From Methanobacteriota archaeon (GTDB lineage Archaea > JAADCQ01 > Methanopyri > Methanopyrales > Methanopyraceae), in assembly GCA_027064425.1 (NCBI GenBank), contig JAMOPO010000057.1, forward strand, positions 1-64,000: DNA of 64,000 nt, written 5' to 3'. Under the pieces are notes generated by a model that was not told where the DNA came from, searched no databases, and saw only the letters and a list, made by a program, of their open reading frames with translations. The translations under genes and the position numbers were made by a program. Shown here piece after piece: positions 16,983 through 61,974 of the stretch (the stretch's first letter is position 1; the number at the start of each line of letters is the position of its first letter).

Positions 16983-18059
16983 ATGATCCCGCCGTTCCAG
17001 GCCCTCGTAACCTGCCCGGCCGGGTTCGAGTTCAAGTGCATCTCAGAGCTGGAAGGGCTGCTGAGGGAGGAGGACCCGTACGTCGAGGTCGAGCCGACCT
17101 ACTTCAAGGGAGTCGTGGTCGTCCGCTCCGAGCTCGAGCCGGAGGACATCGTCGAGAAGATCCGGGAGGAGGACACGGACTGGGTGGCCCGGGCGGTCCC
17201 CATCCACCGGACCGTGCGCGCCGAGCTGGGCGCGATCGAGCGGGCCGCGGTCGCCCTGGCCCGGCGCAAGCTCGACGAGGACACCTCCTTCGCCGTGCGG
17301 TGCCGCAAGCGCGGCCAGCCGCCCTTCAGCCGCCGGGACGTGGAGGTGGAGGTCGGGGCGGCCGTCAAGGAGGCGACCGGCGCCCCCGTCGACCTGGAGG
17401 AGCCGGACTACGTCGTCCGGGTGGAGGTGCTCCAGGACACGGCCGGCGTTGCCGTGATCCCGCCCGACATGATCGTTCGGAAGGAGGTCAAGCGCGTCCG
17501 CAAGTGGAGCCCCGGAATGCGACCCATCTCCCGCTCCCAGCTGAAGATGCGCGAGCTCCTGAAGAAGCACCCGTACCTGGTCCGAGAGGGCTGGAGCGCG
17601 ATCGACCTCGGCGCGGCCCCGGGCGGCTGGACGTACGAGATCGCCCAGCGCGTCAAGCCGGGGAAGGTGTACGCGGTCGACCCGGGCGACCTCCATCCGA
17701 AGGTCCGCGAGCTGGACAACGTGGTGCACCTCCAGAAGCGCGGCGAGGAGCTCACGGAGGAGGACGTGCCGGAGAAGGTCCGGCTGGTGACGAGCGACCT
17801 GAACCGCGTGCACACGGAGGCGGCCGAGGTCACGCTCGACGTCGCGGACAGGTTCCTCGAGCCCGGCGGGTTCGTGGTGCAGACCGTGAAGCTGGCCGTG
17901 GACCCGGAGACGGGCGAGTACGCGGCCCCGGACGTGGAGACGGCGGTCTCCGAGGTCGAGCTGGAGTACGAGAACCGCGGGTACGAGGTCATGGCCATCG
18001 AGTTCCTGAAGCATAACACGCCGAAGGAGCGCACCATCGTCGCCCGGAAGGAGGGCTGA
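16983..18059 (+). CDS. THUMP-FtsJ-type (RrmJ-like) RNA 2'-O-methyltransferase
   Basis: 358 residues from ATG 16983, one base after the trpS stop. Residues about 60-165 form a THUMP RNA-binding domain (TSFAVRCRKRGQPPFSRRDV, then TGAPVDLEEPDYVVRVEV). From about 185 a Rossmann methyltransferase of the FtsJ type begins: SRSQLKMRELLKKH, the SAM-binding DLGAAPGGWTYEI, VDPGDLHP, TSDLNR and VQTVKLAV. This THUMP-FtsJ architecture has been linked in archaea to 2'-O-methylation at tRNA position 6; I am confident of a 2'-O-methyltransferase acting on structured RNA but less of the position. The K-D-K-E-type catalytic residues are plausible at Lys192, Asp270, Lys305 and Glu (approximate positions). Confidence 0.83.
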   Translation: MIPPFQALVTCPAGFEFKCISELEGLLREEDPYVEVEPTYFKGVVVVRSELEPEDIVEKIREEDTDWVARAVPIHRTVRAELGAIERAAVALARRKLDEDTSFAVRCRKRGQPPFSRRDVEVEVGAAVKEATGAPVDLEEPDYVVRVEVLQDTAGVAVIPPDMIVRKEVKRVRKWSPGMRPISRSQLKMRELLKKHPYLVREGWSAIDLGAAPGGWTYEIAQRVKPGKVYAVDPGDLHPKVRELDNVVHLQKRGEELTEEDVPEKVRLVTSDLNRVHTEAAEVTLDVADRFLEPGGFVVQTVKLAVDPETGEYAAPDVETAVSEVELEYENRGYEVMAIEFLKHNTPKERTIVARKEG

Positions 18060-25791: not shown

Positions 25792-25982
25792 CCCGGCACC
25801 ACTCCGCCGATCGTGCCCGGGGACCGTGGGAGGGGGTGTCCCCGGGCGTGGGCCCCCCTCTCATCCCGACGCGGTGCGGCGTCGAGGGGGTCCCGCCGGG
25901 GCCTGTGCCGGGGCGCCGTACCGGGCGATCATCGACGGCTGACGCCGACTCACGCCCGTCCCCGGGGATGAGCGTGACGGCC

Positions 25983-26035
25983 TCAGTCGGCGCCGCACTC
26001 TTCACCGATCAGGGCCGGGCAAGAGTCGTCATCGG
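25983..26035 (-). ncRNA. Candidate C/D-box sRNA in the leader 5' of the gene at 25791
   Basis: Minus strand: C-like CCGATGA (26035-26029), 16 bases, D' CTGA (26012-26009), three bases, C'-like GTGAAGA (26005-25999), 12 bases, D CTGA (25986-25983). The 3-base D'-C' spacer and 12-base D guide have the right geometry; both C boxes deviate. The C box overlaps the stop of the upstream gene. The rest of the spacer, 25792-25982, is GC-rich, with CACGC/GCGTG hairpins and no gene. Confidence 0.3.
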
Positions 26036-27192
26036 CCGGGCTTTAAAATGTCTATTCGCCCCTCCTCAGCGGCCGCGGCGGCCTCTCTCATTAGCTTGCG
26101 GGCCAGGTGGGCGGAGGACTCCCGGGCCACCACCCGGTACCGCCTCCCGTTCACCTCGAGCTCGCCCCTCCGGACCCGGACCGCGGGGCAGAACTCCGCG
26201 CAGTACCCGCAGTGGAAGCAGTCCCCGGACCGCACGTCCGAGTACGGGTAGGGGCAGCGCTCCTCCAGGGCGCAGGTGTCGCAGTTCTCGCACCGCGAGG
26301 GATCCCACTCGACCCGCTCCTGCACCCAGACGTCCGAGTACCGGGCCGAGCCGACGCGGCTGCGATCGGAGAGCCGTGCCACCGGCAGCTCCGCGTCCTC
26401 GTGCCGGCGGTCCAGCCACTCGAGCGTCTCCTCCGTGACCGCGATCGCGGAGGCCACGCCCGCGATGTTCTCCGGCCCGGCCGCCGTCCGGTACTCGCCC
26501 ATGTACTTGGGGTCGCACTCGCGGAGGTCCGCGTGGAGGGTCAGGTTCGGGTGGTCGGGGCTGCTCCGGGTCCCGGTTCCGGTGATCACGGCGGGCGCGC
26601 CGCAGAAGAGCACGCGCCGGCCCGGTTGGTGCAGCTCGAGGTTGGGATCGTGCTCCAACGGGTTGTAGCCGCCGCACCCGCTGAAGGAGGCCTCTCCGGG
26701 CCGGAGGGGGCGCGGGGCGAAGATCGTCCGCTCGGGCTCGGAGCCATCGTTGACGAACGCCGTGTAGTTGCGGAAGCAGGTGCGGGTGGAGGCCAGGAGC
26801 GCGCGGTCGAAGTCCTCGGGCCCGACGGTGGCCTCGTGCTCGGTCCCGTCGTCCGCCACGGCCACCACGTGGATCTCCTCGCCCGCCGCGATCCGGCGGA
26901 GCAGCTCGGCCCCGGAGATCCTACCCTTCAGGGTCGCGGGGACCAGGCACTCGACCAGGCCCAGGCGCTCGTTCGGGCAGGGCCCGACCGGGACCCGGAT
27001 CCCCTCAAGCTCGACCTCCCTGAACCGGTGCACCTCGCCCGGGTCGGCCACGCGGAAGGAGAGGATCCCGTAAACGCCGCTCATCAGGCCGACCGTGGCG
27101 CAGGTGACGGCGTCGACGCCGCGGCGCTCGCCCTCGGTCATGTCCCAGAACTCGTCGATGGGGACGACGGTGGGCACGACCGGCCCCCTCAC
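26029..27192 (-). CDS. Methanogenesis marker 16 metalloprotein (DUF39 plus ferredoxin domain)
   Basis: 387 residues from GTG 27192; an internal ATG (MTEGERRGVDAV) is possible. DUF39 proteins act in a sulfide-dependent route to homocysteine from aspartate semialdehyde. The DUF39 domain covers about 1-290, with DAVTCATVGLMSGVYGI holding the Cys proposed to carry sulfur, RTIFAPRPLRPGEASFSGCG and PAVITGTGTRSSPDHPNLTL. Residues about 310-350 hold two 4Fe-4S motifs: CENCDTCALEERCPYPY and CFHCGYCAEFCPAV. The start overlaps the gatC stop by four bases. Assignment to marker 16 rests on architecture. Confidence 0.8.
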   Translation of the reverse strand: MRGPVVPTVVPIDEFWDMTEGERRGVDAVTCATVGLMSGVYGILSFRVADPGEVHRFREVELEGIRVPVGPCPNERLGLVECLVPATLKGRISGAELLRRIAAGEEIHVVAVADDGTEHEATVGPEDFDRALLASTRTCFRNYTAFVNDGSEPERTIFAPRPLRPGEASFSGCGGYNPLEHDPNLELHQPGRRVLFCGAPAVITGTGTRSSPDHPNLTLHADLRECDPKYMGEYRTAAGPENIAGVASAIAVTEETLEWLDRRHEDAELPVARLSDRSRVGSARYSDVWVQERVEWDPSRCENCDTCALEERCPYPYSDVRSGDCFHCGYCAEFCPAVRVRRGELEVNGRRYRVVARESSAHLARKLMREAAAAAEEGRIDILKPGR

Positions 27193-58991: not shown

Positions 58992-59107
58992 TGGTGCCGG
59001 GGCCGGGATTTGAACCCGGGACCTCGGGGTATCCCAGGCCCGTGTCACCCTCACGGGGTCATCGGGCCCTATGAGCCCCGCGCTCTACCAGGCTAAGCTG
59101 CCCCGGC
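58992..59107 (-). tRNA. trnM: Elongator tRNA-Met (CAT) with intron and C8
   Basis: Acceptor GCCGGGG pairs with CCCCGGC, then A73 and an encoded CCA (58992-58994). The anticodon loop reads CTCATA with anticodon CAT; a 39-base intron (59069-59031) interrupts after position 37, exon 2 beginning ACCCCG. The T-arm CCGGGTTCAAATCCCGG is perfect. Position 8 is C rather than T, as in most Methanopyrus kandleri tRNAs, needing C-to-U editing to make the U8-A14 pair. The GCCGGGG acceptor fits elongator tRNA-Met. A CTTTTTTAGC about 35 bases upstream is a TATA candidate. Confidence 0.9.
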
Positions 59108-59170
59108 CTCACCAGGGCCGTGCGGACGCCTTTTGGGGGTGCTAAAAAAGGTTACGTGGGGTGCGCCGGG

Positions 59171-60133
59171 TTGGAGGTGCTGGTAACGCTGAACCCGGAC
59201 GTGAGCCCGGAGGACACGGAGCGCGTGGCGGAGGCCATCAGCAGGGAGCTGGGCGTGCGGGCCAGGCCGGACCCGCTGAAGCCGGTGCGTCGACTCCGGG
59301 TGGAGCTGGAGGGACTGGAGGACCTGGACGAGCTGAGGCGGAGGTTCCCCGAGGTCTCCCGGATCATCATCATCCGGGACGAGGGCGAATCCACGGGCCT
59401 GGAGGAGCTGGTGGCGCGAGCCCGGGAGGCGGTGCGGGGGGAGGTGCGCGAGGACGAGACCTTCGCCGTGGACGCGCGGCGCCTGGACAAGACGCTGCCC
59501 TACAGCTCCCAGGACATCGCGCGGGAGGTGGGGGACGCCGTCCGGAAGGTGACCGGGGCCTCGGTGGACCTCGATAACCCGGACAAGTACGTCGACGTGC
59601 ACGTGTCGGAGGACGGGTACCTGATCGGCGTGACCCCGGCGACGCTGCGGGAGCCGAGCCGGCGGTGGCTGCCCGCGGACGCGTTCCGGCACGTCTACGT
59701 CTGCTGCGAGCGGCCGGAGCTGGAGTACGAGATCGCGGACCTGATCCGGGTGACGGCGGCGCTGGGGTTGGGCGGGCTGATCCTCGTGGAGCCGCGGGAG
59801 GAGAGCCTGGAGCGGGCGCGCGAGAAGGTGGGGGCGGCGTCCCTGGTGAACCTGAGGGTGGTGGACGACCTGGAGGAGGCGGTGGAGGGGTTCGACGTGG
59901 TGGTGGGGCTGCACCCGACGGGACCGGAGGGTGAGTCGCGGCTGGTCCAGCTGGCGCGGTCGGGCGACCGGGTGTGCCTGCTCGTGGGCTCGGAGCGGGA
60001 GGGGCTCAGCCGGCGCGCGAAGCGGCTGGCGGACGCGCTGGTGCACCTGGGCCCGACGACGGCCGAGCCGATGCGGACGGCGAACGCCGTGGCCTACGCG
60101 CTGGGGGTGCTGGCGGGCGCCGCGAGCGATTAA
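59171..60133 (+). CDS. THUMP-SPOUT RNA methyltransferase-like protein
   Basis: 320 residues from TTG 59171, seven bases after GGGGTG. Residues about 85-150 form a THUMP domain (ETFAVDARRLDKTLPYSSQD, ASVDLDNPDKYVDVHVSEDG) and about 170-315 a SPOUT/TrmH-like knot: LGLGGLILVEPREESLERAR, VCLLVGSEREGLSRRAKRLA and TAEPMRTANAVAYALGVLA, where the glycine loop and Pro-Met turn bind SAM. This pairing is uncommon; the target is probably tRNA. It is divergent from tRNA-Met across an A/T-rich TGCTAAAAAAGG. Confidence 0.75.
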   Translation: MEVLVTLNPDVSPEDTERVAEAISRELGVRARPDPLKPVRRLRVELEGLEDLDELRRRFPEVSRIIIIRDEGESTGLEELVARAREAVRGEVREDETFAVDARRLDKTLPYSSQDIAREVGDAVRKVTGASVDLDNPDKYVDVHVSEDGYLIGVTPATLREPSRRWLPADAFRHVYVCCERPELEYEIADLIRVTAALGLGGLILVEPREESLERAREKVGAASLVNLRVVDDLEEAVEGFDVVVGLHPTGPEGESRLVQLARSGDRVCLLVGSEREGLSRRAKRLADALVHLGPTTAEPMRTANAVAYALGVLAGAASD

Positions 60134-60210
60134 TCCCGTCAGCCACCGCTCCCACTCTTCATCGGCGGCGCCTCGTAGACCCGGTTGACACATCATCCGG
60201 GGGAACCAGC

Positions 60211-61023
60211 TTGCTCGAGCGGGTCTTCCAGCGGGTGCACCGTGAGGGTCGCGGGGCGCTGATCGGGTACTTAACTTGCGGGTACCCGGGCCTCGAGGAA
60301 ACGGTGGAGCTGGCCCGGGCGATGCGCGACGGAGGGGTCGACATCCTGGAGCTGGGAGTGCCCTTCTCCGAGCCCATCGCGGACGGTCCGACGATCCAGA
60401 AGGCCGTCGATGAAGCGCTGAAGGCGGGGACCACGCCCTGGGACTGCCTGGAGGTCGCGGAGGAGGTCTCGGACTTCGTGCCCGTGGTGCTCCTGTGTTA
60501 CTACAACACGCTGCACGCGAACGGGATCCGGCGGTACCTGGAGGCGGCGGCGGACGCGGGCGTGTCCGGGATCATCGTCGCCGATATGCCCGTGGAGGAG
60601 TCCGACGAGGTGTGGGAGGCGGCCAGGGACGTGGGCATCGACGTGATCTACCTGGTGGCCCCCTCCACGACCGAGGAGCGTCTCGAAATGATCGGTGAGC
60701 GGGCCTCGGGCTTCGTCTACGTGATCTCTCGGTACGGCGTCACGGGGGCCCGGGAGGACCTCTCCGAGGGGACCATCGAGCTGGTGCGGTGGGTCCGGGG
60801 CTACGTGGACGTCCCCATCGCCGTCGGGTTCGGGATCTCGAAGCGGTGGCACGTCCGGGAGGTCGTGGCGGCGGGCGCGGACGGCGCGATCGTGGGCTCC
60901 GCCTTCATCGACCTCATCCACGAGTCCGAGGACCTGGAGGAGGCCAGGGAGCGCGTTCGAGAGCTCGCCGAGCGGCTGGTGGAAGGGGCGAGGGAGGGGT
61001 ACGAGCGGCGCTCATCGGGATAG
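60211..61023 (+). CDS. trpA: Tryptophan synthase alpha subunit
   Basis: 270 residues from TTG 60211, with GGGGGAACC upstream. It cleaves indole-3-glycerol phosphate. GALIGYLTCGYPGLEETVEL, DILELGVPFSEPIADGPTIQ with the catalytic Glu, VVLLCYYNTLHANGIRRYLE, GIIVADMPVEESDEVWEAAR, FVYVISRYGVTGAREDLSEG and VAVGFGISKRWHVREVVAAG match the family. The trpB partner is not in the window, so the genes are separated here. It overlaps a minus-strand gene by 12 bases. Confidence 0.95.
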   Translation: MLERVFQRVHREGRGALIGYLTCGYPGLEETVELARAMRDGGVDILELGVPFSEPIADGPTIQKAVDEALKAGTTPWDCLEVAEEVSDFVPVVLLCYYNTLHANGIRRYLEAAADAGVSGIIVADMPVEESDEVWEAARDVGIDVIYLVAPSTTEERLEMIGERASGFVYVISRYGVTGAREDLSEGTIELVRWVRGYVDVPIAVGFGISKRWHVREVVAAGADGAIVGSAFIDLIHESEDLEEARERVRELAERLVEGAREGYERRSSG

Positions 61024-61398
61024 GGCGCGCCGGGCCGCGGCCTCCAGCATCGAGGCGGCCCGGCCGGCGGCCCTGTCGATCACCCGCTCCAGCTCCTCCT
61101 CCAGCACCTCGTCGGCGACCTCCAGCACCAGGTCCAGCGTCTCCTCGAGCTCGTCCGGATCCGGTAGGTTGGGGTTGGATCGACTCAGCTCCTCCTCCAG
61201 CGCCTCCTCCAGGTGGGCCTGAGCCCGATCGGCCAGCGCGGGCACGAACCGCTCCTGAAGCTCCGTGCTCAGGGTCTCCCGGATCGAGTCCTCGTCCACC
61301 TCGAGCTTCTCCGCCAGGTAGACCTCGCACCACAGGTTCAGCAGGCGGTCCATGAGCCGCTCCCGGACCTCATCCGTTGACACCATCCTCCGAGCCAA
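61012..61398 (-). CDS. Acidic helical protein of unknown function
   Basis: 128 residues from TTG 61398, seven bases after GGGGGGC; ATG 61386 is an alternative. It is almost wholly helical with Glu, Leu and Asp repeats (RLMDRLLNLWCEVYLAEKLE; ADEVLEEELERVIDRAAGRA), as if coiled coil. Cys and Trp occur once each. It follows a similar acidic protein by 11 bases. I do not recognise a family. Confidence 0.55.
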   Translation of the reverse strand: MARRMVSTDEVRERLMDRLLNLWCEVYLAEKLEVDEDSIRETLSTELQERFVPALADRAQAHLEEALEEELSRSNPNLPDPDELEETLDLVLEVADEVLEEELERVIDRAAGRAASMLEAAARRALSR

Positions 61399-61409
61399 CG
61401 GGAAGCCCC

Positions 61410-61727
61410 CTACCCCTCGACGCTCAGGTGCTCGTCCAGGTCCTCGAGGATCCTCTTCGCGCTCCGCTCGGCCACCATCCCCAGGATCCACTCCGTGTCC
61501 TTCATCGCCCGCTCGACGGCCCGGCACACCGCGTCGACGAGGAACCGGCACTCGTCCACGTCCACACCGGCCTCGGAGAGCCGCTCCAGGTAACGATCCC
61601 GGAAGTCCTCGCCGAACCGCTCCAGCTCCTCCCGGATCCCGCTCGACAGCTCCCCGAGGCTCAGCTCCTCACGGACGCGGCTCGCCAGGTTGGGCAGCAC
61701 CTCCTCCAGGGGATCCTCCTCCGCCAT
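61410..61727 (-). CDS. Acidic helical protein of unknown function
   Basis: 105 residues from ATG 61727. Entirely helical and strongly acidic (DPLEEVLPNLASRVREELSL; ERFGEDFRDRYLERLSEAGV; FLVDAVCRAVERAMKDTEWI), with a Cys pair. Together with the next gene it may form a two-subunit helical complex, judging from similar composition and the 11-base gap. The region to its start, 61728-61896, has no gene but holds the tRNA promoter. Confidence 0.55.
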   Translation of the reverse strand: MAEEDPLEEVLPNLASRVREELSLGELSSGIREELERFGEDFRDRYLERLSEAGVDVDECRFLVDAVCRAVERAMKDTEWILGMVAERSAKRILEDLDEHLSVEG

Positions 61728-61860
61728 CGGGTGACCCCGCCGGTGTTCACGTTCCGACGTAGGATAAGTCCTTCGAAAAGGGGGAAGGGGTCGGGAAGTC
61801 CGCCTTCGCTCATCCCCGGTTCCGGGTCGCCCAAGGCTGAACTCCTCATCCCGCGCAAGA

Positions 61861-61867
61861 CTTTTTA
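61861..61867 (+). promoter_or_regulatory. TATA box of tRNA-Ile2
   Basis: CTTTTTA after AAGA is A/T-rich in a GC-rich setting and lies 30 bases before the tRNA 5' end. The leader repeats GGGCCCG (61884-61890), the first bases of the tRNA, so two alternative acceptor pairings are possible before trimming. Confidence 0.55.
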
Positions 61868-61896
61868 CGCGAGTGGACGCGGTGGGCCCGGGAGGA

Positions 61897-61974
61897 GGGC
61901 CCGCAGCTCAGTCCGGTCAGAGCGCGGGGCTCATAACCCCGTGGTCCCGGGTTCAAATCCCGGCGGGCCCACCA
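61897..61974 (+). tRNA. trnI: tRNA-Ile2 (CAT) with C8
   Basis: Acceptor GGGCCCG pairs with CGGGCCC, followed by A73 and an encoded CCA (61972-61974). D arm GCTC/GAGC, anticodon stem CGGGG/CCCCG with loop CTCATAA, T arm CCGGGTTCAAATCCCGG are all perfect. The acceptor GGGCCCG is that of archaeal Ile2, whose C34 is changed to agmatidine so that it reads ATA; a tRNA-Met is less likely. Position 8 is C, needing C-to-U editing. No intron. Confidence 0.9.

Follow-up and report, generated by a model that had tools for sequence, protein, structure and literature searches.

Two tRNA genes of an archaeal genome, both located near the end of the window (the whole stretch of 64,000 nucleotides that was analysed), carry a C at position 8. 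This raises the question of whether these genes belong to the tRNA-editing system described for Methanopyrus kandleri, in which the deaminase CDAT8 converts C8 to U8, and how far this feature extends beyond the two genes. The relevant features of the locus are:

58992-59107, minus strand: elongator tRNA-Met(CAU) gene with encoded CCA and a 39-nt intron (Infernal RF00005, 52.3 bits; ARAGORN with introns allowed; exon junction)
59100, minus strand: position 8 of tRNA-Met, a C with predicted editing to U (direct reading, 8th base from 59107)
59174-60133, plus strand: gene for a THUMP and SpoU-type RNA methylase (Pfam THUMP 64.8 bits, SpoU_methylase 43.6 bits)
61897-61974, plus strand: tRNA-Ile2(CAU) gene with encoded CCA (Infernal; ARAGORN; identity to tRNA-Ile(GAT))
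61904, plus strand: position 8 of tRNA-Ile2, a C with predicted editing to U (direct reading)

Infernal searches with Rfam models revealed exactly two tRNAs in the window, one at 61897-61971 on the plus strand (68.3 bits) and one at 58995-59107 on the minus strand (52.3 bits). With default settings, ARAGORN detected the gene at 61897-61974 alone, and both tRNAs were found once introns were allowed. The intron of tRNA-Met is located at the canonical site, after the first nucleotide 3' of the anticodon, and its excision allows the 5-bp anticodon stem to close. The tRNA-Ile2 gene is identical to the tRNA-Ile(GAT) gene of the same genome at 74 of 78 positions and carries a CAU anticodon on an isoleucine tRNA body; the tRNA-Met label assigned to this gene by ARAGORN was overruled on the basis of this identity. 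The coordinates and the Met and Ile2 labels proposed by the sequence-only reading are thus correct, as the reconstruction of intron and exons and the match to tRNA-Ile(GAT) show. The 5' ends of the two genes read GGGCCCG-C-A-GCTC-A14 and GCCGGGG-C-A-GCTT-A14, so that both encode C8, A9 and A14; direct reading of these ends together with the Infernal matches confirms the claim that C8 stands opposite A14 in both.

In each of the five Methanopyrus genomes examined, the THUMP-SpoU gene and tRNA-Met are transcribed divergently. The THUMP-SpoU gene is a neighbour of the tRNA gene without a part in C8 editing. Among 41 archaeal genomes, full-length relatives of the protein were found in Methanopyrus only, and the matches in other genomes cover one half of it; the protein is possibly a methyltransferase for tRNA or rRNA that is specific to the genus. 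Two further features of the window concern RNA metabolism: a gene for a THUMP and FtsJ-like methyltransferase (16983-18059, plus strand), which lies directly downstream of a putative tryptophanyl-tRNA synthetase gene, and a C/D box guide RNA (25981-26036, minus strand; Rfam sR47, 41.4 bits with a threshold of 40 bits).

The source genome is a draft of 1.54 Mb in 57 contigs and is 99% complete. Its tRNA inventory comprises 31 Rfam matches. A search with a T-loop pattern recovered three more genes, tRNA-Trp and two tRNA-Glu genes that contain D-loop introns; tRNA-Asp gave a partial Rfam match only. The tRNA-Glu genes carry a GC-rich D-loop insert in addition to an anticodon-loop intron in all five genomes and are missed by Rfam and default ARAGORN. 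C8 is encoded by 31 of the 34 tRNA genes, the three T8 genes being Gln-UUG, Pro-UGG and Pro-GGG, and A14 is present in all 34. ARAGORN parsed the initiator tRNA-Met as a T8 gene, which is wrong; its correct 5' end, AGCGGGG-C-GGGGTAG, places a C at position 8. A control set of 58 distinct tRNAs was drawn from 12 archaea outside Methanopyrus, and all of them have T8 and none C8, counting 11 in which ARAGORN set the start one base early and T8 appears after a shift by one base. Since C8 is found in 31 of 34 genes of this genome and in 0 of 58 elsewhere, its presence in the window is not due to chance. C8 is nearly genome-wide, and there is nothing special about the two genes in the window.

The source genome shares genus and family with four sister genomes, and C8 was recovered in these as well: of the 155 tRNA genes recovered in the genus, 140 encode C8. 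One of the sisters, a single contig of 1,694,969 bp that resembles M. kandleri AV19, contains 34 tRNA genes, 30 with C8 and four with T8. For M. kandleri, C8 has been published for 30 of 34 tRNA genes, with the T8 exceptions Gln-UUG, Pro-GGG, Pro-UGG and Thr-GGU (PMC11802342), which is exactly the T8 set of the AV19-like genome. The lineage call of the sequence-only reading is therefore borne out, because the source genome shares its genus with a genome whose C8 and T8 counts and T8 identities match those of M. kandleri AV19. The tRNAs for Gln and both Pro tRNAs have T8 in every Methanopyrus genome in which they were recovered. In contrast, among the four genomes in which tRNA-Thr(GGU) was recovered, the AV19-like genome is the only one with T8, and the other three have C8; the compared stretches of the Thr(GGU) genes of the AV19-like genome and one sister differ at position 8 alone. 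Judged from these sequences, Thr-GGU switched to T8 in AV19 alone.

A draft assembly in 57 contigs could in principle give rise to C8 by an error of sequencing or binning, or C8 could stem from wrong parsing of the genes. However, four other genomes, of which two are single contigs, independently show the same C8 positions, and the counts of the AV19-like genome, including its four exceptions, equal the published ones. This concordance across genomes and with the literature refutes an artefact, for which practically no probability remains.

The sequence-only reading had further predicted a CDAT8-like deaminase elsewhere in the genome, and such a gene is indeed present, in a single copy. THUMP and cytidine-deaminase matches coincide in one open reading frame on another contig (C3, 38729-39616, minus strand). 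Its product is 73% identical to that of the M. kandleri AV19 gene, whose structure has been solved (PDB 3G8Q, identified as M. kandleri CDAT8 in reviews: PMC9957541, PMC11802342); in a phmmer search, residues 19-296 align with residues 2-278 of the 278 residues of the 3G8Q chain (E=3.7e-134). The deaminase half scores below the Pfam gathering threshold, as expected of a divergent family, and the deaminase assignment therefore rests on the identity to the solved enzyme. The CDAT8 motif has been published as His-Ala-Glu-Xn-Pro-Cys-X-X-Cys (PMC11802342), and the corresponding zinc site, H60-A61-E62 and P82-C83-x-x-C86, is intact and invariant in five Methanopyrus species. The AV19 enzyme has been reported to deaminate C8 in tRNA or an acceptor minihelix (PMC9957541). 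The genome also encodes a homologue of the 4-thiouridine synthetase ThiI with a clear Pfam ThiI domain (PF02568, 152.5 bits), which at 239.9 bits stays below the curated NCBIfam cut-off of 264.5 bits.

Full-length CDAT8 is encoded by all five genomes of the phylum that were examined, which represent one genus, and in each of them it co-occurs with the C8 pattern. The four sister proteins are 65-83% identical to the CDAT8 of the source genome. When 297 archaeal genomes were searched with a profile, none of the 292 from outside Methanopyrus was found to contain a full-length CDAT8. Four of these 292 gave partial matches of about 30 bits and were rejected as CDAT8 relatives; in three of them the match lies at the THUMP end, and in the fourth it spans the 155 C-terminal positions of the model. 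A scan of contigs with peptide patterns, which requires near-exact peptides, matched one metagenome-assembled genome only.

Taken together, this genome almost certainly belongs to a Methanopyrus that uses the known CDAT8 system for C8-to-U8 editing of tRNAs. That editing takes place in this organism, at which step and to what end, is inferred from M. kandleri, in which RNA-Seq revealed that trimming of the 5' and 3' ends is followed by C8-to-U8 editing and then by intron removal, and in which mature tRNAs carry the edited position 8 (PMC3695527). By analogy, most tRNAs, both of those in the window included, would be transcribed with C8 and first be trimmed at their ends. CDAT8, in which an N-terminal zinc-dependent cytidine deaminase is followed by ferredoxin-like and THUMP parts for gripping the acceptor end, would then deaminate C8 of the pre-tRNA to U8, and the edited base would restore the standard U8-A14 tertiary pair in the mature tRNA. 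The intron-bearing tRNA-Met of the window would keep the order of trimming, editing and intron removal known from M. kandleri, and the ThiI homologue could subsequently turn the new U8 into 4-thiouridine. CDAT8 and ThiI resemble each other in their target position 8 and in an RNA-holding module of the ferredoxin-like/THUMP type; however, ThiI thiolates an existing U8 by means of a PP-loop domain, whereas CDAT8 creates U8 by means of a deaminase domain. Alternatively, the mature tRNAs could keep C8, which would be tolerated through a C8-A14 or another contact, and CDAT8 would act elsewhere or be dispensable. This is highly improbable, as CDAT8 is intact with a catalytic motif conserved in all five species, mature tRNAs of M. 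kandleri are edited (PMC3695527), and A14, the partner of U8, is conserved in 155 of 155 genes.

Why C8 exists at all is a different matter, for which GC-based DNA stability, the timing of folding or thiolation, and protection from viral integration have been proposed in the literature. According to reviews, C8 could merely be a by-product of GC-enriched tRNA genes, which would keep the DNA stable at high temperature, and editing would make it harmless; this explanation concerns the origin of C8 and not whether it is edited. The genus is GC-rich, and the stems of its tRNAs consist almost entirely of G-C pairs. However, Gln and both Pro tRNAs keep T8 where C8 would be equally possible, and the same set of C8 genes is found from about 58% to 72% GC, a range obtained from small sampled stretches of the sister genomes, the single C8/T8 difference being the Thr gene of AV19. 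As the C8 set is otherwise constant over this range, a simple GC explanation is not favoured and is rather unlikely to account for C8. Selection acting specifically on C8 was considered and rejected. In a per-position count of changes over 34 groups of orthologous tRNAs, position 8 showed a single change, compared to zero to two at most other positions and four at position 16; the tRNAs of the genus are thus nearly frozen at most positions, and the constancy of C8 alone is no proof of selection. Two rules for the retention of T8 also failed: G9 together with a GGGT D-stem, a neighbour-base rule, is likewise found in the C8 initiator tRNA-Met, and acceptor stems ending in GGCCG are shared by the C8 tRNAs for Gly and Tyr. 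A further reading, suggested by the present sequences, is that C8 holds the precursor in an alternative fold until it is edited, in which case CDAT8 would be a licensing step for final folding and thiolation of U8. C49-G65 is present in 155 of 155 genes, and C8 could displace C49, pair with G65 and extend the acceptor stem. In 25 intron-free C8 tRNAs, the mean predicted 8-65 pairing is 0.86 with C8 compared to 0.55 with U8, calculated with folding energies at 37 °C for isolated tRNAs, which are hardly representative of life near 100 °C. However, the T8 tRNAs also have C49-G65, and C8-G65 pairing would be possible in them too if they were mutated to C8. Furthermore, the switch of the AV19 tRNA-Thr to T8 implies that C8 is dispensable, which counts against a holding fold; this reading is unlikely.

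Compared with M. kandleri AV19 (3G8Q; PMC3695527, PMC11802342), the source genome is alike in the architecture and motif of the enzyme, the near-universal C8, the number of 34 tRNA genes and the three core T8 tRNAs. It differs in having 31 instead of 30 C8 genes, owing to the C8 of tRNA-Thr(GGU), and in its higher GC content of about 70%. tRNA introns vary between Methanopyrus species: Val(GAC) has an intron here and none in AV19, whereas the introns of Cys and Asn in AV19 are missing here.

The only known genome-wide C8-to-U8 editing of tRNAs, so far tied to a single well-studied strain, is hereby predicted for each of the five examined genomes of the genus. The source genome is an ordinary member of this remarkable system, and in most respects established biology is confirmed. 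Minor additions are the constancy of the three T8 tRNAs, the change of Thr-GGU private to AV19, and a C8 pattern that does not track GC content at the sampled loci. The edited set is thus old and stable, and the differences between T8 and C8 genes offer natural comparisons for the question of why C8 persists in Methanopyrus.
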